A stretch of 64,000 nucleotides of DNA from Pedinophyceae sp. YPF-701. Lineage: Eukaryota; Chlorophyta; Pedinophyceae. The position numbers and the translations under genes are program-made. Position 1 is the stretch's first letter. Each line of letters opens with the position of its first letter. Of this stretch, positions 25,247 to 41,848 are shown piece by piece. The stretch lies in NCBI GenBank assembly GCA_916048055.1, contig CAJZHL010000031.1, positions 310,001-374,000 of the forward strand. The letters are read 5' to 3'. A model generated the notes under the pieces. It was not told where the DNA came from. It ran no database searches and saw nothing but the letters and a program-made list of their open reading frames with translations.

Positions 25247-26044
25247 CTAGTACGCGTTGTTCTGGATGTTGGCCGCCGGACGTGCCGGCGGCATGCGGCA
25301 CAAGCCGAAGCACCCCCTGCGCTCCCGGGTCTCGGCCACGGGCTCCGCGGCCGGCTTTGCTGGAGCCGCGGCGACGCCCTCAGGCTGCGCGACCTCGACG
25401 TCGACCTCGACCCCCGCGTCAGCCACCTCCTCCATCTCCCTGGTGACCGTCGTCGCGTCCGACACCTCGCTCACCATGGCCGCCTGGCTGGCAGCCCGAC
25501 GCAGGTCCACGAGCTCCCTCACGAGCTTCGCGGCGTGTGCGTGGTTGACCTTGCAGGCCATGTTCGGACCTCCCCGGAGCCGCTTCTTGCCCGGGAAACC
25601 CGCACCGGGACCCTCTGGGTGCAGGCGCCCTTGCTTGATGCGGTCGTCGCGGTTCGCCTGGACCTCCTCCACGATCAGGTCCCAGATGGCGTCGCTCGCG
25701 GCGCTGGGCAGCTCGCGCAACCACGCCGGGCGGATGTTCATGTCGAACTCAGCGCGGTTCGGGCGCCCTGGGGCTCGCGCAGCCGCAACAGCGCGCTTCC
25801 GGTCCTTCGGGTGGATGGCCGCCAGGAGGGCTGCAGCGAGGAGACGCTGCTGGGCAGGGTCGCCCCGCGCGGGCTCCGTGGCGGTCTCGTTCGCCGAAGC
25901 TCCTGCGGAATCATGCCGTTCATTCCTACGTGAGCGTCTGGAGCGCGCGCTGGAGGCTCCGATGGCCCGACGTCGGCGCTGCCGCCCGTCACGCCACGAG
26001 CACGATGGGTGGGGCACAGCGACGGCAGGTCGTCGTGCGAGCAT
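25247..26044 (-). CDS. Repeat-family protein A, one unit
   Basis: I do not recognise this protein from any named family. It belongs to a group of related genes in this window. About 265 residues follow from the ATG at 26044; the frame is open further upstream. After a basic, probably disordered leader, one unit runs from LLAAALLAAIHPKDRKRAV through WLRELPSA and a tryptophan (IWDLI). It reaches the signature LHPEGPGAGFPGK, then GGPNM and a conserved Asn (VNHAHAAKL). The C-terminal part is Glu/Val/Ala-rich and ends with RRGCFGLCR and a Tyr. No membrane segment was seen. The start is uncertain and a 5' exon is possible. The function is unknown. Confidence 0.65.
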   Translation of the reverse strand: MLARRPAVAVPHPSCSWRDGRQRRRRAIGASSARSRRSRRNERHDSAGASANETATEPARGDPAQQRLLAAALLAAIHPKDRKRAVAAARAPGRPNRAEFDMNIRPAWLRELPSAASDAIWDLIVEEVQANRDDRIKQGRLHPEGPGAGFPGKKRLRGGPNMACKVNHAHAAKLVRELVDLRRAASQAAMVSEVSDATTVTREMEEVADAGVEVDVEVAQPEGVAAAPAKPAAEPVAETRERRGCFGLCRMPPARPAANIQNNAY

Positions 26045-26813
26045 GACTCGCAACGCGCGCCGCGCACGAGCGAGGTGAGTGCAGCAGCATGCCGCTGCCG
26101 GCCACCGAGCAAGCAATGCGGGACGCACCGGCGGAAGTCATCACCGCCTGGTCTGTGAGTGCAACTCCGACGGGACGGCGAATGTGGCGCAGAAGGACAG
26201 ATGCACGAACAACGGACGTGTAGCTCAGGGGCGAACTATGCGTCGGTGGCCAGCGCATGCCGCAGCAGCGCCACATGAGGCCCCGCCGCGCGTGCAACCA
26301 CGGGGGGCCCTGGCACGACACGTCCGAGGGCCCTGAGAAGAGGAAGGGTCGCACGGGGCTGTGCACGCGATCTGGGGCCATCGTCATGGACCCCGAGGAT
26401 GCACCATGCGAATTCGGTCCACGGGCGACGCGACAGCTCGAAGCCCTGGGCGCGGGTGCGGCGCACGTGCGGGATGTGGTGGCACAGGTGGCGTGCAGGG
26501 ACGACGCGCGCCGAGCGGCTGCTTGCGCGTGGAACGCGTCCGGACGGGCGGCTACGGCCCCGGTATAGCTGGCGCTAGGTGCGCGCTCTGTTTCTTGGAA
26601 TGCAGCGATGAGTCGAGAGCGGAACAGTCAACAGTTGACGCGGCGTGCAGTTGTTGGTCGTGCGTGGGCAGAGGTGGCGTAGACCCACACCGCGACCACG
26701 CAAGATCACAACGCTGCGGTGCATGCCGCCGGTGAGCGCGGAGCACGCGTCGCTGTCGTCGACAGCCTTGGGCTGGTTCAGAAGTCACCCGACAGCAGCC
26801 CCAAACGATTACA
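26045..26813. other. Intergenic within the island, nothing recognised
   Basis: This stretch lies between repeat-family members A and B. No conserved motif or gene was found on either strand; open frames are short and compositional. Confidence 0.4.
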
Positions 26814-28157
26814 TCACTCCGTGCTATCCGAGGCGTCAGATGACTTTCCCCGCGCGCGCGAAACCGGCTGAGTCGGCGCCTCCGACGGTTCTGCCTGCGA
26901 GCTAGCTTCCCGCGCCGGCGTCCGGAACGAGTCCTCGCGCAACGCATGCTGCATTGCAGCCTGCTGCATTGCAGCACGTTGAATGGAACCATCAACGCTA
27001 TCGTGGCCCAGATTCCTCGCGTCCAACCCGCCCTCGTGCAGCGCCGCACCGCGCCGCGGTGTTGCGCGCGAGCCCTGCTCGCTCTCATCTGCCGACCCGG
27101 ACGACGACATCTCGCCTCGCAATGCGTCAGCCTGCGCTGCAGGGGCTCTGGCCTCCGAAATCTGTGCTCCGCCAGCCTGGTCCTCGCGAAGGTTCGCTGC
27201 GCTCTGTCGCAGGACCGCCTCGGCCGCCTCGCGCGTCGCTCGGAGCTGTTCCCGCACTCTCTGCAGCACGGCACGCAGCTCGCCGGCCTCGCGCTCGGTA
27301 CGCCTGCGCGGCTCGGCGATGCGCTCCAGCAGCCTCGCCGCGTGAGCTCTGTTCTGCGGCAACCTCATGTCCGGTCCGCCGTCGTCCCGAAGACGTCCCT
27401 CTTGCGGGAATCCTGGCTGCGCCCCTCCTGGATGCAAATCTGCGCTGCTGAAAGCATCGAGGCGTCCCTCCTTCGCCAACGCCCGAAGCATGGTCCACAC
27501 CTCGTCCTTCGCGACCGAGCTGGCGCGCCGGAGCCATTCTGGCTGCGCCGCGTCGAACGTTGCCCGGTCCCCCGCTTCCGCCGCGCGAGCGAACGTGATG
27601 CGCTTGGGCTCGTTGATCGCTGCAAGCACCGCCGCAACGTCCTCGCGACCGGCCGCAAGCGCCCGCAGGCGATCGATCTCAGCGTCGCGTTCACCCAGCG
27701 TCGTCTCCAGGTGGCAGATGTGCCCGCTGCGTTCGGACAGCGTCGTCAGCAGGCCTTGGTTCTCGGCCTCGCGCTCGGCCAGCATCGCCTGCATGCGGGC
27801 TATCTCCGCCGCCACGATCTCGTTCACTAGCCGCGCCGCGTACGCCTTGTTGTCAGGGTCGTTCATGGCAGGGCCACCCTCTCCGCGAACGCGACCGGGG
27901 AACCCCGCCATCGCGCCGCTGGGGTGCGCGGTCCCATCGACCACGTCCTTGCCGTGTCCGTCGCTCACCAGCGCGCGCAGCACGGCCCACACCTCGCCAC
28001 GTGCCGCGTCGGGTGCGTGACGCAACCAGGTGGGGAGGACGGGCTCGAACGACGCGCGGTCGTCCGCCTCGGCGGCGCGCACAGCACGGCGACGGTCGCC
28101 GCGGTCCACGGCGTGCAGCAGGGCGTGCGCGGCATCGCGCTTCTGGGCCTCGTAGTC
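26814..28157 (-). CDS. Repeat-family protein B, two units
   Basis: This is an unrecognised protein with two family units. The unbroken frame reaches 28157, where a CAG acceptor precedes GAC TAC GAG. A start upstream of it is needed: one option is a small exon at 28217-28258 followed by a 59-base intron, in phase. Unit 1 ends in TAHPSGAMAGFPGRVRGEGG-PAM and unit 2 in LHPGGAQPGFPQ and DDGGPDM. Between them lies a linker with ERDAEIDRLRALAAGREDVA. After the units come a coiled coil and a Gln/Ser-rich tail with a short AAMQ duplication. Unit 1 DNA is nearly the same as that of member E (see the repeat entries). The function is unknown, and there is no signal peptide or clear membrane segment. Confidence 0.68.
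   Translation of the reverse strand, partial: DYEAQKRDAAHALLHAVDRGDRRRAVRAAEADDRASFEPVLPTWLRHAPDAARGEVWAVLRALVSDGHGKDVVDGTAHPSGAMAGFPGRVRGEGGPAMNDPDNKAYAARLVNEIVAAEIARMQAMLAEREAENQGLLTTLSERSGHICHLETTLGERDAEIDRLRALAAGREDVAAVLAAINEPKRITFARAAEAGDRATFDAAQPEWLRRASSVAKDEVWTMLRALAKEGRLDAFSSADLHPGGAQPGFPQEGRLRDDGGPDMRLPQNRAHAARLLERIAEPRRRTEREAGELRAVLQRVREQLRATREAAEAVLRQSAANLREDQAGGAQISEARAPAAQADALRGEMSSSGSADESEQGSRATPRRGAALHEGGLDARNLGHDSVDGSIQRAAMQQAAMQHALREDSFRTPAREASSQAEPSEAPTQPVSRARGKSSDASDSTE
27816..28064 (-). repeat. Duplicated segment, copy 1 (member B)
   Basis: These 249 bases align without a gap to 40154-40402. By hand count there are 12 mismatches, about 95% identity. The segment encodes most of unit 1 of the repeat family in both genes. 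Such identity is far above that between the other units, so recent duplication or gene conversion is likely. Confidence 0.88.
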
Positions 28158-28258
28158 CTGCGGAGGAAGCGAGGGAGCGTGAGGGGGCGGTGGGGGTTTC
28201 AGGTCTCAAACGGCACGTCGATGGATATCAGGCGGATAAACATGGTTTTAAGGTTCAT

Positions 28259-29252
28259 AATGGCGTGTTGGAGTCTTTGTCTGGACACTGGAGGCGCAGC
28301 GCCGCACGCCCAATCCTGAGATGAAGATGTTCAGTGCACACGCCAGGAGCGCAATTATCGCCGCCGTTCGCGATCTGGACGACATGTGTATATACGAAAT
28401 TATCGTGTGCGTGCATCAGTGGCGAGGCATCGCGTGTGCTGCGGCGGAAGCAACTCACCATTGGCGTGCCAAGCAGCGCGCTCGGGCTCGATCAGCAGCA
28501 AAGGACGGGGACTTTGATGCACGAAACACGCAACTTCAAGCTATGTCGGTCCCATGAATGTCAGGCTCGCATCGCTGCCGCGCCTGTTGACCCCCTGCCG
28601 CGCACGTCAATCAGGGGGGACGCGCTTGACGCAGGTGGCGCGTCAGGGCCCTTGTGCGACGACGAGTGCATCCCAGCGCCCTTGCGTCGCATCTTCATCT
28701 GTACGCTGCTCGATTCGTGGAAGTTCGGAGCATGGCGAGGCGTGGATCCGCGTCACGTGCGGAGCTGAGCAGTGCACCCGCGGCGCCGTCATTGCCGGCT
28801 CTTGGTCAACGGCCCGAGCCACTCGAGGCCTGCTACTTCGAGGGGCGCGCGCGCAGCGGACGGGCATGCTGGTGGCTTGCTCGTCGTGAGCCGACGTCGA
28901 CCGCGTCGTCGGGCGAACGCAGATCGACAGTTTGCTACGTCAGCGATGCACGCTCGTGGCGCACTCGGGCTCGCAGCGCGGTGACGCCGCGCATCCAGCC
29001 GCCAGCCGACGCGGCAACGAGCGCTCGTCGGCCACCCCGTGTGCGCCGCGCGCTGGCCACCGTTCGTCGAGGCCGTTCTGAGCACCGAGCGCTCAACGGC
29101 GGCCCTGCCTGAACAAAAACGCCTCGTCTTGGACCCCGTGTTTGCTGCGGTTGGTGCGCGCGAATCAGACACGACACCATCGGTTCCTTAATCGTCACAT
29201 CGAACCCCTGCCTCGCTCAACGGGTGGTCGTTTCGGCATGGTGCAAGCGGCG
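28259..29252. other. Intergenic within the island, nothing recognised
   Basis: This is the spacer between repeat-family members B and C. Short stretches near 28210-28260 and 28330-28400 look less GC-rich than the surroundings. I found no gene, RNA or repeat that I could support. Confidence 0.4.
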
Positions 29253-30434
29253 TTACTTGAAGCGCGCGAGGACCTGCTTCGTGGCCCCCGCGGCGTGGCT
29301 GGCCGCCGCGCTGACGACGGCCCTCGTGGCCTTTGCGGTGCCCGCCACCCAGCTCGGGCTCGCAGCCGTGAGGCCGAACTGGTCGGCCAGGACCAGCGTG
29401 GCGAGGAGGGTGAGCAGCAAGGCCAGGACCAGGGGGAGCAGCGCCGGGGAGCCGGACTGCGCGCTCTGCTCCTTGGAGGTGGCGGTGTCGTTCCCGTCGA
29501 AGTCGAGCTTCTTGGCCGTTGACGTAGTCTTGTCAATCTCCGCCGTGAAGTCGTTGCGGCACTTCGGGCACGACACCTTCACGGTGCTCGTTCCCGAGCT
29601 GGCAGGCTTGATGGGCGCGTCCGTCGGCGTGCTGGGCGACCTCGGCGGAGCCGGCTGCTTGTCCGCCATGTCCTTGAGCAGCTCTGCGATGTGGTTCGTG
29701 TTCTCCGTCTTCCTCATGTCCGGGCCCCCATCGTTACGGCCCTTGGTGACGTCGAAGCCCGCGCTCGGGTTGCCCGGGGGCAGCGCCGTGCAGGCGACGT
29801 ACGCGTCCGCGTGGCCCTCCTCGACGAACGCGCGCAGCATGTACAAGATCTGCCCGCGCGTGTAGGCGTTTGAGGGCTCGTGCAGGTACTTGATCGTTGC
29901 GAGAGCACGCTCGAAGTCCTGCGCCGTCCCGACGCTGTCGATGAGCTTCTTCCGGTGATCCGTCCTCGGCGCAGTCAGCACCGCCGCCAGCTCCTCGCGC
30001 CCCGCAGCCAACACGCGCAGCCGCTCGACCTCCTTCTGCGCCGCCTCCAGCGCCGCGTCGCGCTTGTCCAGGTGCGCCTTCACGATGGCGTCCACGAGCG
30101 TCGCCGCGTGCCTCGTGTTCTCTGGCTCCTTCATGTCAGGCCCGCCGTCCTTGCGACTGGCTTTCGGGAACCCGGCGCCGGGGCCCTCGGGGTGCACGTC
30201 CGAGCCCGCGACCACGTTCTCGGCGCCCCCGGCCTTACTGACGAGCTCGCGGAGACGGTCCCAGACCGCGTCGCGGGCGACCGTCGGGGCATCGGACAGC
30301 CACTGGTGCAGGTCGGTGTCGAATCCGGCCCTGTCGCCCTTCTTGGCGAACTCAACGGCGGCCTTGCGCTGCGGCTTGTCGACAGCGAGGAGTAGGGCGG
30401 CGGCGGCCGCCTCGTGGCCCTGGATCGGGGACAT
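29253..30434 (-). CDS. Repeat-family protein C, two units and a membrane anchor
   Basis: This is a 393-residue member of the unrecognised family. The ATG at 30434 opens directly onto unit 1 (HEAAAAALLLAVD), which ends HPEGPGAGFPK and DGGPDMKEPENTRHAA. Unit 2 follows a linker with VERLRVLAAGREELAAVL; its signature is weaker (LPPGNPSAGFDV, DGGPDMRKTENTNH). After that come a Pro/Ser linker, a single CPKC pair near residue 288, and a strongly hydrophobic run of about 22 residues (PALLPLVLALLLTLLATLVL, about 330-351). A 40-residue amphipathic tail ends the protein. This suggests a tail-anchored protein with the units in the cytosol, which is inference. A CAG at 30420-30422 marks a possible splice acceptor as in the other members. 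Confidence 0.7.
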   Translation of the reverse strand: MSPIQGHEAAAAALLLAVDKPQRKAAVEFAKKGDRAGFDTDLHQWLSDAPTVARDAVWDRLRELVSKAGGAENVVAGSDVHPEGPGAGFPKASRKDGGPDMKEPENTRHAATLVDAIVKAHLDKRDAALEAAQKEVERLRVLAAGREELAAVLTAPRTDHRKKLIDSVGTAQDFERALATIKYLHEPSNAYTRGQILYMLRAFVEEGHADAYVACTALPPGNPSAGFDVTKGRNDGGPDMRKTENTNHIAELLKDMADKQPAPPRSPSTPTDAPIKPASSGTSTVKVSCPKCRNDFTAEIDKTTSTAKKLDFDGNDTATSKEQSAQSGSPALLPLVLALLLTLLATLVLADQFGLTAASPSWVAGTAKATRAVVSAAASHAAGATKQVLARFK

Positions 30435-31556
30435 CGGAGGATCCTGCGCGCGTCGGAGGGCGCGGTGGCGGTGGAGGAGACGCGTCGCAATGGAGGACGT
30501 CCCTGGGATTTTCTTGCGCCAATTCTAATCTTGTCGCGCAGTGTCAACACTGAAGTACGCGATTACGCAAGACATAATTCGAGACATGCCGTCACTGTCC
30601 CGTGCCGCGGGAAGGTCATCGAACAGACAAGGCTCGTGCTCCGCGGGCGTCGCGACGTCGCGAGACGATGTGCGCCACGTAGAACCCATGCTTCGATATA
30701 GAACCGTCGAGGAGTCGCGCCGCAAATGCTGTGTCGGCATTACGCGGTGCGCTTGGGGCGGAAGGGCTAATCACCTTGTGCTTGCAAGCAACGCGTCGTG
30801 GAGGGTGCACGGGGCCGTGGATTGACAGAGAGGTAGTGCAAGATCACCGGAAGGGAGCAGTGCGGCCCGCGCAGCGCGAGGGCGGGCCATGAGCCCCCGC
30901 CGCACCGCCTGGGAGACCCCCACCCACCCATGCGTGCCCTTGGACGACGATCACGTTTTCATGACCTCTGACCCGGGCGACAGGACTTCGTGCGGCGCGT
31001 GCAGGACGCATACTGGTGTCTGATGCATCGCCACGCGAATGATCTCGCTGCTCCGATGCCTTGTGGCGCGAGACTTTGTCATGCGAGCGCGCGGTCGCGT
31101 GCACTGTGAGCCCTGAGCATGTTGTTGTGTGCGCGGGCCGGGCTGGACGGGCGTGAGGGCCGGGCTGGACGTCGCCGCGCCGCGCGGTCCGGCGTCAGCG
31201 AAAGTCGCGTCCGCCAGCGCCGCGTGGAACGCTCCGGAACCCCGGAGAGGCATCGCGAGGGGCAGCAGAGAAGTGGTGGTGAGGAGACGCGCGCGTGGCG
31301 CCCGGGGACGCGCGGGCCGCGGGGAACGAGTCGCTCGCGTAGCTCCGCACGGTCGAGCCCCGGCGGGCGCTCGTCGTCGTCGCGCACCATGGGCGTCGCG
31401 ATCGCGACCCCCCGGTGCGTCGCGGTGCACTTGACGGGTTTCGGGCACCCGGACGGCGGCGGAATGTCTGAACACATGGTTGGGTCACAGTGCCGCGTGG
31501 TACCAATGTGCTGGCCAGGCAGCGTGATGTTCGCGGCGCTTACAACGTGAACGCGT
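30435..31556. other. Intergenic within the island, nothing recognised
   Basis: This spacer of about 1.1 kb separates members C and D. Open frames on both strands are mutual shadows without conserved motifs. A patch near 30525-30600 is less GC-rich. I see no gene or RNA here that can be supported. Confidence 0.4.
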
Positions 31557-32873
31557 TCACGCCGTTGCGTTGTTCCCGTACGGGTGGGGACGAGTGTCCC
31601 TGATGGGAGCCCCCGCATTTCCGTCCTGGCCGGTCTTATATTTGCCCGTGCTGGTCTGCGAATAGGCGGGATTCATCTGGGCCGGCGACGCAGGCGGAGT
31701 AGGGAGCACCTTGTCGAGCACCGAGCGCGCCATCCCGACCACGCGGTCAAGCTCGTTCGCGCGCTTGCGGTGCGAGTCGGCATCCGCAAGCGCGTCCTCC
31801 TTCTCGATGTTGAGCTTGGCCATCATCTTGCGAACAGTTTCGAGCTCGCGCTCGGCCGCCTCAGCACGCTCACGCTCACGCTTCGCCTCCGCCTGCGCAT
31901 CGTCGCGCGCCTTCAGTGCCTCCTGCGCCTCGGCGCGCGCGTCCTCCAGCTTCTGCTGCACGTCGGCCACCAGAGCGTCGTGCTGCTGCGCGCCCTGCGC
32001 GTCGGCGATGTTGCTGATGAGCTGCTCCACGTGCTCCTTGTTCTCCTTGAACCGCATGTCAGGGCCCTGACGGTACTTGCGCCAGTGGACGTGCCCCTCG
32101 TCGTCGCCGAAGCCCGCGCCCTCCCCCTCCGGGTGCAGCGTCCCGTCGATGAACGCCTGCTCGTTGCCGCTCTCGGCGACGGAGCGCAGCATGAGCCACA
32201 CCTCGTTGCGCACCGACGTCGGAGCCTTGCGCAGCCAGCTGGGCAGGTTCGACTCCTCGAAGCCCGTGCGGTCGTTGTTGCGCGCGAACGCGACGAACGC
32301 GACGCGCTGCTGCGGGCGCGTCGCGGCCAGCAGCGCCGCCACGTCCTCGCGGTCCGCGGCGAGGGCGCGCAGGCGGCTGATCTCGGTCGTGCGCTTCTGG
32401 ATCTCGGCCGCGCGGTCGCTCAGGTACGCGTCGACGATCCTGTCGAACAGCGTCACCGCATACGCCTTGTTGAGCGACTTCTCCATGTTCGGGCCCCCGT
32501 CGTTGCGCTGATGGCCCGGGAAGCCGGCGCGCGGGGCATCGCGGTGCAGGGCCGGCCCGGCCTTGATGACGTCGTCGCGCTTGCCGGCCAGGAGCGAGTC
32601 GAGGAGCAGCTGCCACACCTCGCCGCGCACAAGCCTGGGCGCGGAATTCAGCCACTGCGGCAGACACCTCTCGAAGGCGTCCAGGTTGTTGTCCTCGGCG
32701 GCCTTGACCGCATTCCTGCGATCCGTCTCGCCGAGCGCGACCAGCAGGGCGGCCGCAGCCTCGTGCCGCTGCCTCACGTACTCCTGCACAGCAACACGTT
32801 GTGGGGATGACTGTTGCGCTTCCGGGGCTCTCCGCTGCGACGGTGGCGTCACGAGGCACCTCGTCTCGCTCAT
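31557..32873 (-). CDS. Repeat-family protein D, two units and coiled coil
   Basis: This is a 438-residue member from the ATG at 32873. Unit 1 (RQRHEAAAALLVALGETDRR to LNKAYAVTLFDRIV) has the signature PRAGFPGHQRNDGGPNM, with HRDAP in place of HPxG. Unit 2 has LHPEGEGAGFGDDEG and an insertion before RQGPDM. The linker holds EISRLRALAADREDVAALLA, shared with B, C and E. Then a long Lys/Glu/Ala-rich coiled coil (about 290-380) and a Pro/Thr/Asn-rich tail follow. A CAG before GAG TAC (near 32784) may be a splice acceptor, in which case the first 29 residues would not be coding. No membrane segment was seen. The function is unknown. Confidence 0.7.
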   Translation of the reverse strand: MSETRCLVTPPSQRRAPEAQQSSPQRVAVQEYVRQRHEAAAALLVALGETDRRNAVKAAEDNNLDAFERCLPQWLNSAPRLVRGEVWQLLLDSLLAGKRDDVIKAGPALHRDAPRAGFPGHQRNDGGPNMEKSLNKAYAVTLFDRIVDAYLSDRAAEIQKRTTEISRLRALAADREDVAALLAATRPQQRVAFVAFARNNDRTGFEESNLPSWLRKAPTSVRNEVWLMLRSVAESGNEQAFIDGTLHPEGEGAGFGDDEGHVHWRKYRQGPDMRFKENKEHVEQLISNIADAQGAQQHDALVADVQQKLEDARAEAQEALKARDDAQAEAKRERERAEAAERELETVRKMMAKLNIEKEDALADADSHRKRANELDRVVGMARSVLDKVLPTPPASPAQMNPAYSQTSTGKYKTGQDGNAGAPIRDTRPHPYGNNATA

Positions 32874-34169
32874 CGGAGACGATCAAGCGCGTCCAGATAC
32901 GAAAAATCGGGGACGAGTCGCGTCATGGGTCTGCGCCGCGGACAGTAGTTGTGGGGCACCGGAGGGCTATCCATCGCAATGTGGGGCAATGCGGGGCAGA
33001 CGGCTGCGACATTTTGCCTCGTTGATATGTCCATACATGATTGCGTGCGATGCGATACGAAATCGTCGGGGAAAAGGCACGACGGGCCCGCGCCGCGCAG
33101 TGGCGTTCGCGCCCCCTTGTCAGAGCAAGGTCGTCCTCCGCGAGTGAACGAGGGCTGTCGGATGAAGCAGGCGATGAAAGTCGCATATGTCGTATCAACT
33201 GCGTCGTGTAGTGCCGAGAGATCGGCCCATCGGCGGGTGTGGCGCCGCAGTGCGGTGGATGGGCTCACCATTGCGTGCGGTGGTGGTGTGCGCTTCAGGG
33301 AAGTGCGATGAGGTTGCTTGAGGAGCTCGATCGACGAACGGCGTGACGGTGCACTGACGAGGGCGAGGGTGCCGCCGCTGCATCGCGCCTGCCCCTCTTG
33401 AGCCCCTACCGGCCCCAGTCAACACACTCCAACTGTCCCCCCCTCACGTTTTTTGACCTTGCACTCCCTGCGCCCGTGCGCTCGGTGCGACGAGTCCTAG
33501 GCGCCCTCGATTGGCGCGCGCGTCGTCGCACGGTCCATGCTACCTCCTGCGATGCCTTGTGCCGCGGGACACCGTCGCCCCGACGCGCAGAGGCGGGATT
33601 TGGACACCACCACACCATCTACCGTTGCGGGCCCGCGCTCGGGGCGCGGGACGACCCGTTGGCCGCCCCGAACCCACGTCTCGCGTCGTCTTGCTGGCCG
33701 GAGTCGGCAAGGGCGGGAACTCGACGCTGTCGTGAAAAGAGCGACAATTTGACATGTCGCGGTCGCACACGCAAACAACGCGCACGTCCCCGGAAGAGCA
33801 CCTCACCTGGCGCTCTACGCCGGGCCTGCGCGGCCGGGCTCGCTTCGCACGGCTGCGGGGAATGCGAGGCTGGCTCGTCAGCCGGACATGCTCGAAACTT
33901 GTCGCCAACGAAACTTGTCTTGGAATTGTTCCGTCACAAGTAGAGGTGTGTGTTTCTGACTTCAAGCATTCCCGCCCTCCGCCCTGGGCCCCTGCAGCCC
34001 GCTCTGATAGCAACGGCCGCCACTGCGCCGTCGCCCACCTCAACGCGTGCCCCGCGGGCAGGTTGCCGTCCACGCACCACCGGTTGGCGTCCACACCTCT
34101 CGCCCCTCCCCACGTTGCTTCGCTGCTCGCTCGGGCACCCGCGCCGCCGCCGCCGTCACCATCGCGTCG
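32874..34169. other. Intergenic within the island, nothing recognised
   Basis: Nothing conserved was found across this stretch of about 1.3 kb. Overlapping frames near 33400-34100 on both strands look compositional. The left part may hold the promoter of member D and the right part grades into the decayed family copy. Confidence 0.4.
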
Positions 34170-35200
34170 TCACTGCCTGCGGTGTCCGCGGATCGCGCCG
34201 GCGAGGGCTGCAGCGCCTCGGGTTGCCCCTGACGACGTGGATCTGCACCGCCAACGTCTCCCGACCACGTTCCGCCCCCACGCGGTCCCGCACGGCCTGG
34301 TCGCGCCCGCGCTCGGCTGCAGCGGCCCGTGAACGCGCGGCTGCCGCGTCCTCGCGCGCCGTCTGGGCGTCGCGCCCCGCCTCAAAGGGGGGCGCGCACG
34401 TTCGCAGGGTCTTCCAGCGCGCTGGCTGCACAAACATCGTGCGAGGGCTCGCGCGCCGCCGCGATGTGCCGCGTCAGCATATCTGTGCGATCCATGTTGC
34501 TCCTTGTCTGCATGTCCGGCCCGCCGTCCTGCTGGCACGCCCGATGAGGTCTGCCGCTTGCGCTGTCGCCAGCGGGGAAGCCCGCCCGCAGGGTGCAGCG
34601 TCCCGCCGTCGACGACTGCCTCGCTCCGGTCTTCGGCGACAAGCCCGGGCACCAGCTCCCACGTCTCGCCGCGTGCAGCGACATCGCACGTTCAGAGCCA
34701 CGCGAGCGCGGACGCCTCGAAGTCAGCGCCGCTGCCGGACCGCGCTGCCTGGACTGCTGCTCTCCAGCTATCCAGATCCACCGCAAGCACGGGAGCTGAT
34801 GCAGACCGGCGACGCTCGGCCCGGCGCCACTGCAACCCCATAAAAAGATCAAACGAGTAATTTGTATGTTTCATGACTGGCACGAACAAGACCAGAATGC
34901 CCTGGGAGGGCACGAGGACAGTCTCTAGGTGTGTGGTGCGTAACATTGCGGACGCCGCGTGGCAGCAAGGGCGTCGCTCGTCGATGTATGCTGCGATGTG
35001 TGCGGGGCGCTCACGATGACCTCGCGCAGGCGGGCGGTCTCGGCCTTGCTGAGGCGCGACCGCGATCTCGTCCATTAGCTGGCCCGCCTGCTCGGCGTTC
35101 CTGGCGTCCGTCACGTACGTCATGTTGGTGCCGACAGTCCAACAGAGCGGGCAGTCCCCCGGGACGGTCCAGGACGGTCCCGGACCTCCGGTTCGTGCAG
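34170..35200 (-). pseudogene. Decayed repeat-family copy F
   Basis: Fragments of the family unit lie here in several minus-strand frames. Near 35050-35130 a piece reads TYVTDARNAEQAGQLMDEI, the end of a unit after GGPxM. Near 34692-34790 another reads VDLDSWRAAVQAARSG...FEASALAWL and then meets a stop where the other members continue. In a shifted frame near 34480-34590 the signature reads RAGFPAGD and DGGPDMQTRSNMD. Further down (34230-34400), a third frame gives an Ala/Arg/Glu coiled coil like that of member D. An AT-richer insert sits near 34850-34900. At least two frame changes and one stop argue for a pseudogene. The alternative, a gene with several small introns, is less likely. Boundaries are approximate. 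Confidence 0.6.
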
Positions 35201-35370
35201 CAGTTCATGTGGACGCGGCGACACAGTCCTTCCGCACATAGGCCATCCAGCTGAGCGGATCGAGGCGCTCGGTCGGGGCGTGTGCGGGCGTTGTCGAGGC
35301 TCGCAGGAGCTCTCCAGCTGTTCCTGGGAAAACCGATTTCTCGGGTCGCTCGCTTGACCGCACCGCGAAA

Positions 35371-38300
35371 ATGCCGGTCTCGGTCGCAGACTACATCGCG
35401 AAGTGCTCGCGCGCGGGCGTCAAGCCCCTTGACTCCTTCACCGCTGCGCTGTACGCGCCCCCCCATCACCTCCAGCGTGCACGAACGGCCCCTCTCGAGA
35501 CCTCCCCGATGATTTCACACATCGACGCACTGAAACACATCGTATAATCGATGACAGAGCAGTGCGTTCGCCGGGAATGCCCACTTGAGCCGCGATGGGT
35601 GCCAGCGGCCCGTGGGCAACAATGACGCGCACGCTGGGCATGGTGATGCCGTCCGCATGCAGCGCTCGAAACGCGTCGACCCCCCTCTCATCCCCCCGCA
35701 GGCTTGGTCGCACGTCTTCATGCCACATCACCGGTCCGGGCGCTCTGTGCAGCCCTGAGGAGTCCCGGGAGGCCGCCCGGTCGCTCACGGTTGTTGCTGA
35801 AGTGCTGCCGTCATGCGAGTTCTCCGCCGTGCGCGTGGAGGGAATCGCCGTCGAGGCCGCCGTGCTCCTCAAGCTGGTGTCAGCGGTCGCGTCCTGCCCC
35901 TCGACGACCACCGTCGGGCTCACGCGGTGCCTTGCTGAGGGTGCGGGCGGGCTCGCCTCCGCTCTGCAGCCGCTCGCGGACTGCGCGCACCTCGAGGAGC
36001 TCACTCTCGCGGAGTGCGACATCGACGACGCGACCGCCACGTCGGTCGTGGCGAACGGCAGCCTGCTGCGCGGGCGCTCCGCACTCAAGACGCTCGACCT
36101 CTCCGGGAACATGATTTCTCAATCGGGCGCCCAATCCATAGTGCGAAGACTCATGTCCGAGGGCGCCCTGCGCCTCACGGGCTTCGCGCTCGCCAAACTC
36201 GACCTCCGCGGCAACCCCCTCGGGCCCGACGGCGAGGCCGCGTGCAAGAAACTCGCCCAGGTCGTCAAACGCACCGCGGTGTTCTTCGGCGACGACGGCA
36301 CCCCAGCGGCGGGCTGGGCCCAACAACCGGCACCCTGCGCAACGCCCCCCGCGCCCGCCCTGTCCTCGGCGTCGCGGATCCCTCGGCCGACCCCCACGGC
36401 CACGCCCGCGGCGTCCACGGCCGCCGGTGCCAGCGCGCAGCCCCCCGCGCCCCCTGCGTCGGATGCCAACACCGCGCCGCGGCGGCCCGCGGCGCTCGCG
36501 CACGCCGGGGGCTCCCTCGTCAACAGGCTGGTGCAGATGGACGACTTCGACCTGGGCACGCCGCAGGGCGATGCGAACAAGTCCGGCCTCCTGGGCGACG
36601 ACCCCGACAACAGCGCGTACCTGGTGCCGTTCGTGCCGTCGCCGACGCGCGTCGAGGCGGTCTGCGGCAAGCCGGGGGCCGCGAGCGAGGTGTCCTTGAA
36701 GGCGACGTGGTGGCCGCAGCAGCAGCCCGCGCTGCCGTCGCCCGTCGGGTTCCCGGGGCAGTCTGACGGCGACGCCGAGTCAGGGCCCGGCTTGCTCGGC
36801 GCGGACGGGGCCGGGAGCGGCCTGGGAGTTGCGTCTGAGGACGCAGGGAACGGAGAGCCGGAGCGGCGGGAGAGTGCAGGCGCGGCGCCGGTGGAGGCGG
36901 CACCTGAAGTGCCGCCAGCTCTCTCGCCCGCTGTCGACACGCCCGCTGAGGGTGCGGTCGGGCGGTCGTTCCAGGGAGACGAAGCAGGATTAGAGGTGGT
37001 GGAGGCGCTGTCGCCGCCGGCCGCGAGCACTCCTTCCCGGAGCAACTGCACGGCGGAGAAGCAGGGGGGGTCTCGTGGCACTCCCCCCCCCGTCGTGTCC
37101 GTGCCGTCCGCGAGGCAGTCACCAGGCGAGCTGGAGATCATCCCCACGCCGCGGTCCGCGTCGCCGCCGCCGGTCGTGGACGCGCCGTCCTCGTCGGGCG
37201 CCAGGCCTGACAACAGGCACGTCATTTTGAACACCCCCGGAGGACCGGCGGCGCTCGCGGGCGACGCGCCGACGCCGGAGAGCGCGATTGCGCTGCTGCG
37301 CCAACAGATCAAGCAGCTGCGCGACGCAGCTACGCCCGACCCAGCGGTCGTCGCCCGAGCAGCGCGCGGCGACGTCAGCCCAGCAGGGGCGCCGGCGGCC
37401 TTCGAGCTCCCGGACGGCCTGCCGTCGCTGGAGGTCAAGGTCGACCGGGCGGCCGTCGCGCTGGTCTCGGCGGACCGTGCGTCCAGCGGCGGGTGCGTGC
37501 CACGCCCATTCCGGAATCATACCCCCTCCTCCCTCCTTGTTCGCCTTGCTTTGCAGCCCGTTGCTGCGCCCACGGGAACATGTCAGTGTTTCGCTCTGAC
37601 CGCAGGCGCTCGTCGAAGCGGTCCTTCGACGCCGTGGAGTCCCCCGTTGCACCGCTGTCGTCGGGCTCCCGCAGCGCTGGGGGTCGTTCCGCGCGACCGT
37701 CCGACGGAAGCGAGATGCCGCGCAAGGCGATGCGCTTCGAGACCTCGCAGGACGGCACGGCGCACGATCCCGTCGCGGACAGCGAGGTCGCAGCCCGCGC
37801 GACACCTTCATGCTCCCTTGCGTCGCCCGAGGTCTGCCAGTCGCCGCCCGTGGCCGCCGCGGCGGCGCAGGACGCGAGTTCGCCACAGCAGCAGGCCGCG
37901 TCGCCGCGGGGCAAGGCGCCGAAGACGCAGGTGCTGCACGAGCGGACCAACTCCGGCATCGACACGTTCCCGTCCCCGAAAGCGGAGGCCCGCGGCGTCA
38001 ACTTGTACAGGTCCGCCCACCACGCCTGCTGACAGCGCGTACGCGCGTCTCTGCAGCGTCGCATCCACCAGCAACTGCTGTTGACCAGCAACTCGAGCAT
38101 GGGCAACCAGGGTGCTGTTGGGTCGGACACGGGGGGGGGAGTCCCCGCCTCCTTGGGCTCCGCCACTCAGGATGCTTTGGGCACAAATCCTTTGAACGCG
38201 CTACCGCGCCGTGCAGTGACGAGTACCTGGACCGGCTGATGAGCGACGACCAGCGCGCGTTTGCGGGGCGGGGGGGGGGACTGCGGAACTCCCTCGGGAG

Positions 38301-38400
38301 CGCGGGCCAGCCGCGGCCCAAGGCGACGCCCTCGCGGCTCCCAAAGCCCAAGCTGCGCCCCGAGGACAAGCACTGGCTCGAGTGGGACGGGAAGGTTTGA
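35371..38400 (+). CDS. LRR protein with disordered C-terminal half
   Basis: This is a leucine-rich-repeat protein of unknown partner. I propose four exons, 35371-35450, 35702-37492, 37606-38010 and 38217-38400, giving 819 residues with all phases matching. The first exon (MPVSVADYIAKC, then DSFTAAL) is short and resembles the segment that precedes the LRRs in the B3-domain gene. An alternative start without it is the ATG at 35595. RI-like LRRs follow: LEELTLAECDIDD, LKTLDLSGNMIS and LAKLDLRGNPLGPDG. The next 450 residues are Pro/Ala/Ser/Glu-rich. Later exons carry basic segments with likely nuclear signals (RRSSKRSFD, PRKAMRFE) and end KPKLRPEDKHWLEWDGKV. It interrupts the minus-strand repeat-family array on the opposite strand. 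Confidence 0.72.
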
Positions 38401-39067
38401 TGCAGTGTGTGCCAGACACTCAACAGCATCACAATGTGGTGCTGCGTCGTTGAGGACACAGCGGCAACGACCGCCAGCTCCGAGAGTGCCCCGAGGGCGG
38501 CCACGTGTGATCGCTCGGCCCGCCGCATGCGTCCACGTGATGTGTGCTAGGTGCGCATGCGCAGCAACGGACGGATTCACGGTCGCGCGGGAAGGACGGG
38601 AGCTACGTCGCTTGCACCAGGGGCGCCTGCGTCGCAACATCCACTTGCATACAGGGGCGAGTGCATAGCGGCGCGAACGTGAGGTGCCGCGGGGGAGATG
38701 TTTTTCACGTTGGCCTGTCATGGATGGATTCGTGGGGCTGACGGAGGGACGGACTCTCGACCACGCCAGCTTGGGCGCTAACCTGCAGATTCGGAGCACG
38801 CTGCGGCACTCGTCGCGGAGGTTCTCGACACGCCGAGCGGGGAACGGACGATGACGTCGACGTCGACATGAGACACGGGTGACGTGCACGTGTACGCTGC
38901 AGCCAGGACGACGCACGGGGCTGTGAGAAGGGAGATCACACGTGGTCTGACTCAGACGCGGGGGCCTGACGACGGCCACCGCTTCACAAGCGCCCTGCCA
39001 CGTGTCGTTATTGACTCGGGAATATGACGCCAGTAGTCCCCGGCCTTGGGAAGGCCTGCGGCTCAGT
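38401..39067. other. Convergent intergenic spacer, nothing recognised
   Basis: This spacer lies between the LRR gene (+) and repeat-family member E (-). The long minus-strand frame that crosses it (38167-39549) is a shadow without conserved motifs. No gene or RNA could be supported. Confidence 0.4.
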
Positions 39068-40495
39068 TCATCCCGTGTGACAGAAGCCCACGAGGCGGAA
39101 CAACGTGTTGAACCAAGACCTGAAGAGCGTCCGGGGAACAAGACCCTGCTCTTGATCCCCGTTCTTGCGGTAGTCTCCCCCATGAGCGGTCTTCTGCGCA
39201 ACCGCCTGCGTGGTGCCCTTGTCAGAGGGCCCGGTCCTGCCGTACGAGACTGTGCCCGAGGGGGATGTCGTGCCGCCACGCTGCGGCGTCTGCGGTGCGT
39301 GCGAGACCTGTTCGTTGTCATCGGTCGACTCCGCACGCGAGACCTGCGCGTGCGACGCCGCGCTCTCCGCCGCCGTGACCTGCGCCTGTAGCTCCTGCAC
39401 GCGCAGCAGCGCAGTCGCGCGCTCGCTCTGCACTGCCTCGGCACGAGCTGGCTCCGCAGCAGCCTCAATTTTCGCTGCCTCCAACTGAGACTGCAGCGTC
39501 TCGACCTCGCTGTGCAGCGTTTCGACCTCGCTCGCGACGGCCTCAGCACGTGCCCGCTGCTCTTCAGCCTCCCGACGCGCAGCCTCGATCTCTGCGGCGG
39601 AATTCCCCGCCTCCTGCACTTGAATCTGAACTTGAAGTTGCGGCTCCTGGGGCTGAAGCTCGTTCAGCGCCTGAATCTGCTGACGCAGCTGCTGAACTTC
39701 AAGCCTCGGCTCGGTGAAATTGCCCAACAACGTCGACAGGTGCTGCCTGTTCGGGGCGTGTCTCATGTCTGGTCCGCCGTCGAGTCGGCATACGCCGGGA
39801 AAACCGGCCCTCGCACCATCTGGATGCAGGTGGCTGTGCTCAAAGAAGTCGATGCGCCCTTCCATCGCCATCGCGCGCAGCATAATCCACATGTCGTCCT
39901 GTACGGCGATGCTGGCATTTTGGAGGACTGGCAACTCCGCGTTGAATCTGCTGCGGTCGTTCGCCTCCACCGCTCCGACGATAGAGCGGCGTGATCCGCT
40001 GCTGATTGCAGCGAGCACCGGCGCCAAGTCCTCGCGACCAGCCGAGAGTGCCCGCAGGCGCTCAATCTCCGCGTCGCGCTGAGTCAGTGTGGCCTGCAGT
40101 TGCGCGGCCTGCTCCAGGCGCTCCGCGTCGCGCTCGGCCAGGAGCGACGACACGATCTCGTTCACCAGCCGCGCCGCGTACGCCTTGTTGTCAGGGTCGT
40201 TCATTGCAGGGCCACCCTCTTCGCGCACGCGACCGGGGAACCCCGCCATCGCGCCGCCGGGGTGCGCGGTCCCATCTACCACGTCCTTGCCGTGTCCGTC
40301 GCTCACCAGCGCGCGCAGCACGGCCCACGCCTCGCCACGTGCCACGTCAGGTGCGTGACGCAACCAGCTGGGCAGGGCGGGCTCGAACGACGCGCGGTCG
40401 TCATCCTGAGCAGCGCCGACGGCGCGATGGCGCTCGGTGGCGTTGAGGGCGAGGAGGAGAGACAGCGCGGCTTCGCGCCTCTGGGCCTGGTAGTC
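39068..40495 (-). CDS. Repeat-family protein E, two units and coiled coil
   Basis: This is an unrecognised protein of the island family. The frame is clear from 40495, where a CAG acceptor precedes GAC TAC CAG, down to the stop at 39068. It stays open further upstream (HLRQRHESQDYQ), so the true start is uncertain. Unit 1 (AALSLLLALNATERHRAV, then LPSWLRHAPDVARGE) ends TAHPGGAMAGFPGRVREEGG-PAM. Unit 2 is more divergent, with LPVLQNASIAV in place of LPxWLRxAP. It ends LHPDGARAGFPGV and DGGPDMRHAPNRQH. The linker has EIERLRALSAGREDLA. A Gln-rich segment and a long Glu/Ala coiled coil follow. The C-terminus RTLFRSWFNTLFRLVGF is amphipathic and aromatic, perhaps membrane-associating. Confidence 0.68.
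   Translation of the reverse strand, partial: DYQAQRREAALSLLLALNATERHRAVGAAQDDDRASFEPALPSWLRHAPDVARGEAWAVLRALVSDGHGKDVVDGTAHPGGAMAGFPGRVREEGGPAMNDPDNKAYAARLVNEIVSSLLAERDAERLEQAAQLQATLTQRDAEIERLRALSAGREDLAPVLAAISSGSRRSIVGAVEANDRSRFNAELPVLQNASIAVQDDMWIMLRAMAMEGRIDFFEHSHLHPDGARAGFPGVCRLDGGPDMRHAPNRQHLSTLLGNFTEPRLEVQQLRQQIQALNELQPQEPQLQVQIQVQEAGNSAAEIEAARREAEEQRARAEAVASEVETLHSEVETLQSQLEAAKIEAAAEPARAEAVQSERATALLRVQELQAQVTAAESAASHAQVSRAESTDDNEQVSHAPQTPQRGGTTSPSGTVSYGRTGPSDKGTTQAVAQKTAHGGDYRKNGDQEQGLVPRTLFRSWFNTLFRLVGFCHTG
40154..40402 (-). repeat. Duplicated segment, copy 2 (member E)
   Basis: This is the partner of 27816-28064: the same 249-base length, no gaps and 12 mismatches by hand count. 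Most differences are silent or conservative (for example Ser to Gly in HPxGAM). Outside the segment the two genes differ strongly. Confidence 0.88.
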
Positions 40496-41848
40496 CTGCG
40501 ATTCATGGCGTTGACGGAGGTGTTTCGAGTGTGTGCAAAGGAGTGAGAGTGAGTGCCTGCGCGCGGCGGGGCGTCATGTGCAGCCGCATTGCGTGCCGAG
40601 GGATCGATAACGGTCGGTCATAGTCTGCGATGTAGCTCGCAATAGCGTCGGACCTGCTACGCTGCGCGGAAACGATGTGCCGCGCGGTTCAATGTGCAGC
40701 GTAGCACACCTCTCATGTCGGCACGAATTACGGCGTGTCACGCAATGGAGGATGAACGTGTCGTCGCGAGGGGCCTCCAACATCATGCATCATGGTAATG
40801 AGCGGTACACGAGGGGCTGTAGCGCCGCATCGTGTGCAAACGAGGAGGATGTGTGGGAGAGACAGCATTACCATTGAACGCTTCGGTTCGCGCAGTGAAC
40901 AATCTCCTTCGCAAACGACGTCCTGTCAGCGACCGTCGACGTATGAAAGTGGCGCATCCATGGCGCCCACGCGCCTGCCGAGCCCCGAACGGACCCAAGA
41001 GGGCGGGGGACACTGGCAAGGGAATGACCATGCGTCAGGTGCGGAGCAGCGCTCGAAAGGAGCGCCCCGCCGCCTCGGCGCGCGAACACGCAGCTTCCTC
41101 TTCGTCCCGCATGCTGTTGCGGTGCCGATGGACTGTGCGAACCGGAATTGCTGTCGCGTGCGCCCTGCGCTGCGCAAGGCACGCAGCCATCGTCACCGGC
41201 TCGGCATGTCAGCAGCGCGCGCAGCTACTGGCTCGCCCGTGCATGCGTGCGTGATGACGGCGGCGCTCGCACGGGCGTCGCCGTCAGTCAGGGCCCGCCG
41301 CGCCGTCCCGCGACGGCATCGACATGACGCGCAGTCATTCAACGCCGCGCGGTCGGGCACCCCGGTCGCTCCGAACCGCAAGCGCCGTCGTGCGCGTTCC
41401 CATCGGCCGCCGACATGTACGAGCGAGCGCACCGGCGTCTTGAGGTGGTCACGTGAGGGGAGCTGCAGGGGAGCGTGGGCGCCCGCGGGGGCGTGCGCGT
41501 CGTTCCCGCAAGGAAACCGTGTTGACCGCACGCGCTCCGCAAAGACTACGGCACGCAGGGGCGGCCCAGTGCGTGATTCGTGCCGCTCCTGGGCCCGCGT
41601 CCCACCTCAGTTTTCGAGTCGCACTGGCGCCAACGCGGCCGCTCCGGGCCCTGTTGGGCCCGCGCGGCGCGGCGCGCGGGCACTCTCACCGCTCGCGTCG
41701 AGCTGCGCGACTGCTTCGCGTCCAAGAAGCCCGAACGGCGCGGGCACCGTCGCTGAAGCTTCAGCACAGCCCCTGAACCGGCCTCTGAGGGGACAGCGGG
41801 GCACCAGCAGGGGCGCGGCGCGTCAGGGGGGAAGGCATAGTGGTAGTG
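40496..41848. other. Region before IFT74, no supported gene
   Basis: This stretch of about 1.35 kb should contain the 5' end of member E (-) and the promoter of IFT74 (+). A long plus-strand frame crosses it (from 40792) and runs into IFT74 exon 2, but the part before 42382 lacks conserved motifs. The true IFT74 N-terminus lies in another frame. No other gene was recognised. Confidence 0.45.

Follow-up and report, generated by a model that had tools for sequence, protein, structure and literature searches.

An apparently lineage-restricted family of predicted all-α repeat units in a gene array of the pedinophyte alga YPF-701

Introduction

To what family do the proteins encoded by a row of related genes in Pedinophyceae sp. 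YPF-701 belong, and how might they work? The genes lie in a window of 64,000 nucleotides, the whole stretch of DNA analysed here, at positions 310001-374000 of contig C31. The strain has been renamed Akinorimonas japonica, according to PMC12574857. An earlier note, made on the window alone, had described five intact genes, nine or so intact units and one decayed copy, all built of a repeat unit that it could assign to no known domain. We report that these units form a real family, apparently restricted to the lineage of this alga, and that the unit is predicted with high confidence to fold as an orphan all-α domain. We tentatively favour a reading in which the units are binding heads on coiled-coil stalks, some with membrane-attaching tails, so that the proteins may serve as adaptors or tethers.

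Extent of the family

A profile was built from seven seed units and run on the frames of the window. It finds nine intact units of about 105-125 residues in five minus-strand genes, here called A, B, C, D and F (Table 1). There are two units each in frames 26817-28205, 29256-30524, 31560-32882 and 39071-40573, and one in frame 25250-26137. The expectation values (E) of the full frames range from 2.4e-47 to 9.8e-102. The count of the earlier note, including the decayed copy, is borne out. Because the seeds were drawn from the array genes themselves, the fair test is to leave out one gene at a time. Such profiles recover all eight intact genes of the genome, the five of the window and the three located elsewhere, with E between 5.8e-16 and 5.7e-42. 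Among 1528 six-frame targets, the non-family frame that comes nearest reaches E 0.028; the decayed copy, in its three pieces, had been kept out of this control. The units are thus confirmed as a real family.

The genome (27.9 megabases in 32 contigs) was searched with seven protein queries and one consensus-like unit query. Together they converge on 12 intact units in eight intact genes and one decayed copy, the dispersed members being one single-unit gene on each of contigs C1, C6 and C14. These counts are lower bounds, and the genome-wide census proposed in the earlier note therefore gives at least eight intact genes and at least 12 units. The statement that most members have two units holds within the window (four of the five genes) but not across the genome, where it applies to four of eight.

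Several further matches were dropped as members. Those on contigs C3 (E 0.686) and C28 (E 0.507) are too weak, and the stretch matched on contig C12 (E 0.884) holds no unit match better than E 4.7. The next-best matches of the consensus-like unit query, also dropped, are further sites on contigs C14 (E 0.099) and C1 (E 1.67).

Conservation and gene structure

The alignment of the 12 units reproduces the order of motifs and the RLRALxAGRE linker that had been described. At eleven columns the same residue is found in at least 11 units, and the ten of these columns that are not Met use two to four different codons each. The residues are kept while their codons turn over, which indicates constraint on the protein and shows purifying selection on the key residues of the unit. 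The earlier note had named, as findings that would speak against the family, a clear match of the unit to a known domain of known function, or a lack of transcripts and of such selection in all members.

In five of the eight genes (B, D, F and the copies on C1 and C6) an ATG directly abutting GTRA is located 304-488 nucleotides (nt) upstream of exon 2, which starts right after a CAG. The introns between them contain stops in all frames. For the C6 gene, a public record, P0001 (an unnamed protein product of 346 amino acids), consists of the start Met and the 345 residues read for the gene, letter for letter. Its Met is joined directly to exon 2, which supports the splice model for this gene, and the same splice is inferred for B, D, F and the C1 copy. 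For A, C and the C14 copy, the 1.2 kb upstream yielded no such site. Gene C has an ATG of its own, where the collection record P0002, identical to its 393-residue protein, also starts. Between the C1 and C6 copies the introns match at 68% over 221 nt; the other introns have no long match in common.

Over the window as a whole, the word ATGGTGAG shows no significant enrichment (3 observed vs 1.07 expected, with 3 or more in 9 of 100 shuffles), and the gene F intron is counted by the looser word ATGGTRA. The case for the introns rests for this reason on their position upstream of exon 2, on their recurrence in five of eight genes and on P0001. The third ATGGTGAG, at 25470-25477 on the minus strand, is inside gene A just past its unit and was taken as chance.

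It is necessary to consider whether these frames are genes at all. The genome has about 70% GC, and the window holds 187 open reading frames (ORFs) of at least 150 residues, many of them overlapping and on both strands, so that long open frames could arise as an artefact. However, held-out profiles recover the family across four contigs, and synonymous codons turn over at the conserved residues. The GC content at third codon positions of the family genes is 0.77-0.93, vs 0.45-0.59 at second positions and 0.57-0.69 in the introns. Together with the identity of P0001 to the inferred C6 gene, these observations in practice exclude an artefact.

Searches for known relatives

No known relative of the unit was accepted from any library or collection searched. 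None of the eight intact proteins reaches a curated Pfam cut-off. When the 12 units were scanned singly, three Pfam families each hit a single unit (best E 0.055), as do three NCBIfam families (best E 0.0021), none above the cut-off. The matches of full proteins in NCBIfam are far under the cut-off and many of them fall in coiled-coil stretches. The matches in PADLOC (best JetC2, E 0.0002) also fall in such stretches. PHROGs, the PDB sequences and viral and prokaryote contigs gave no accepted relative. A search of 5.8 billion proteins that requires shared five-residue words gave no relative outside YPF-701 among the matches listed. Neither NB-ARC nor LRR is matched at E ≤1 in any of the eight members in Pfam, and the LRR ORF of the window is a separate plus-strand frame. 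The claim that the unit matches no known domain has so far survived all of these comparisons. The unit would then be a new sequence family within the libraries and collections searched, with a presumed way of working that is ordinary.

Predicted fold and charge of the unit

The fold prediction that the earlier note had suggested gives one all-α fold. From the 12-row alignment, the AlphaFold model of the unit has a predicted local distance difference test (pLDDT) score of 95.7 and a predicted template modelling score of 0.88. No clear structural match to this model was found among PDB and viral structures. It is quite possible, though we incline against it, that the unit belongs to a known family of helical domains, perhaps of the helical-bundle interaction type, but has diverged beyond the reach of sequence profiles and the PDB; the family would then be new only locally. 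The full-length model of F (mean pLDDT 75.2) consists of a head, a continuous helix of residues 101-151, a second head, and helices 247-280 and 284-376, followed by disorder and a C-terminal helix.

The RRxAV basic patch described earlier as a general feature of the unit did not hold up. Only one Arg is invariant, and the net charge of the units ranges from -6 to +10. The invariant Arg sits in helix 2 of the unit model. Together with the basic units of gene A (+10) and of the C14 copy (+6), it could indicate a nucleic-acid-binding family, in which the conserved Arg, together with Arg-rich helices, would contact DNA or RNA and dimers would form through the coiled coils. Seven of the 12 units are net negative, however, and two are neutral, and on these charges the idea was rejected. 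In addition, no DNA-binding Pfam family is matched at the cut-off, and the membrane-like hydrophobic segment found in C and C6 is ill-suited to a nuclear role. We consider a nucleic-acid-binding function distinctly unlikely.

Tails and proposed function

The tails are divergent among the members. Heptad enrichment is strong in the tails of D, F and C6, where none of 300 shuffles reaches the observed value, and in that of C1, where one does. A 19-residue hydrophobic stretch is present near the C-terminus of gene C (mean hydropathy 2.77) and of C6 (3.18), two of the eight genes; only the most hydrophobic stretch of each protein was computed. The tails of these two proteins are similar, their score being reached by 7 of 2000 block shuffles and standing above the other 1993. 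The tail of F ends in an amphipathic helix with a moment of 0.59.

In the proposed mechanism, the unit would be a rigid head that binds a protein or a ligand, and the conserved stretch HPxGxxAGFP...GGPxM...N would shape its binding face. It may also be that the conserved Arg, His and Asn make up a ligand site. Coiled coils would pair the heads into multivalent stalks. The hydrophobic helix of C and C6, or the amphipathic helix of F, may place some members on intracellular membranes, where the proteins might act as adaptors or tethers. Duplication, loss, divergence of tails and gene conversion within the array would diversify the set.

Several observations weigh against this mechanism. B shows no significant heptad enrichment (159 of 300 shuffles reach its value), and A shows a weak one (11 of 300). 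No coiled coil was found in the tails of C and the C14 copy, which have no Pro-free stretch of 42 residues. It follows that the hydrophobic segment and a coiled-coil tail occur together only in C6. When the genome was searched, the match between the C and C6 tails had an E no better than 0.199. Scans of hydropathy and moment found no membrane-like tail in B, D and C1. Finally, the ratio of non-synonymous to synonymous change (dN/dS, by the NG86 method) is 0.37-0.90 and thus not low, for the 11 of 66 unit pairs with identity above 0.40. These values are near saturation and too saturated to decide the matter, which is why the variety of codons was used to judge selection instead.

Duplication history and possible gene conversion

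When the 12 units are placed in a tree, those in second position fall together with the single units of the dispersed genes (94% support), and the first units of B, F and D form another cluster (87%); the other deep nodes are weak. This grouping points to descent of B, C, D and F from a gene with two units, and of the dispersed copies from the unit-2 type. The genes B and F also share a patch, nt 81-360 of exon 2, that is far more alike than its surroundings, with 69% identity before it and 65-68% after it when aligned. The ungapped identity just past the patch is 37% because an insertion shifts the register. The synonymous difference is 0.10-0.11 in the two 40-codon blocks inside the patch vs 0.38-0.82 in the remaining blocks, a pattern that gene conversion would produce. 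The two genes also agree at 90% over the first 30 nt of exon 2, which fits less well with one clean tract.

Such a history could also belong to a recognition or defence family, a fast-evolving array with heads for variable targets (pathogen or mating type), diversified by duplication, decay and conversion. The tandem array holds a decayed copy and an LRR ORF, and the conversion-like patch, the divergent tails and the lack of any relative found elsewhere fit this as well. However, only eight intact genes were found, no immune domain is matched at the Pfam cut-off, and the PADLOC matches are confined to coiled-coil stretches. Relaxed constraint also yields fast divergence of paralogues. Overall, we regard a role in recognition or defence as rather improbable.

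The array and its neighbours

The coordinates of the array are collected in Table 1. The genes Erv1/Alr and CTLH are located to its left and IFT74 to its right, with a DEAD/Sec63 helicase farther right than IFT74. The picture of a one-strand array between conserved genes stands as far as the family copies, all on the minus strand, and these neighbours are concerned, but the plus-strand LRR ORF interrupts it. In the protein of gene C, one CxxC pair (VSCPKCRND) precedes the hydrophobic segment, with a weak zinc-ribbon match (E 0.16 in Pfam).

Table 1. Positions of the family genes and associated features in the window
Feature	Position	Strand	Description	Evidence
Gene A	25247..26128	-	one unit ~25493-25855; tail ends RRGCFGLCRM...; 5' end provisional	profile match, held-out E 2.6e-28
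Gene B exon 2	26814..28157	-	units ~27795-28154, ~27303-27656, then charged tail	profile, held-out recovery
Gene B start	28158..28461	-	ATG 28459-28461; inferred 301-nt intron 28158-28458, GTGAGT...CAG	
Gene C	29253..30434	-	393 residues; units ~30060-30416, ~29658-30008	profile, held-out recovery
Gene C transmembrane-like segment	~29385-29441	-	single hydrophobic segment; short tail after	hydropathy
Gene D exon 2	31557..32783	-	units ~32412-32777, ~31995-32360, then coiled-coil-like tail	profile, held-out recovery, heptads
Gene D start	32784..33271	-	ATG 33269-33271; inferred 485-nt intron 32784-33268, GTGAGC...CAG	
Decayed copy	34451..34823	-	one unit in three pieces; in-frame stop, frame change	profile
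LRR ORF	35595-38084	+	between decayed copy and gene F; long low-complexity tail	Pfam LRR_6, E 1.3e-06
Gene F exon 2	39068..40495	-	units ~40130-40492, ~39698-40045	profile, held-out recovery
Gene F C-terminal part		-	coiled coil, disordered stretch, amphipathic helix ~39080-39130	structure model, heptads, moment
Gene F start	40496..40874	-	ATG 40872-40874; inferred 376-nt intron 40496-40871, GTAATG...CAG	
Conversion-like patch	27798-28076 (B, unit 1); 40136-40414 (F, unit 1)	-	about 12 kb apart	91% identical

Significance

Orphan families are common in little-studied algae. Should this one prove to lack both a relative outside pedinophytes and a known fold, it would represent a stable domain born or surviving in one algal class. 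Its duplication history is still readable, with a likely two-unit ancestor, dispersed single-unit copies, conversion and decay, which makes it a ready case for studying the birth of orphan domains and their recruitment. With regard to function the discovery is modest, the role being putative. A bolder version, which we hold to be a long shot, is that a domain with a fold of its own arose or survived only in pedinophytes and provides multivalent, partly membrane-tethered recognition heads, whose specificity gene conversion within the array keeps shifting. According to published abstracts, pedinophytes are the plastid source of green dinoflagellates, and the family could for that reason be relevant to the recognition of partners or enemies by these algae.

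Comparison with known systems

The record P0001 is the C6 member itself, a single-unit protein that is unnamed and has no assigned domain. The PDB chain 2r6a_C, which we take to be the helicase-binding domain of DnaG primase, surfaced only with the 475-residue model; it is not among the matches listed for the unit alone, and the PDB sequences give it no match to the family. The architecture may also be compared with golgin-like or tail-anchored coiled-coil tethers. There is no sequence or fold match to these, and the hydrophobic segment occurs in only two of the eight members. The residues after this segment number 43 in C and 51 in C6, and tail-anchored proteins usually have a shorter stretch after the anchor. 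Gene C shares the hydrophobic segment with such tethers and has two heads, but lacks a coiled-coil tail, while C6 would share all three elements: a head, a predicted coiled coil and a C-terminal hydrophobic segment.
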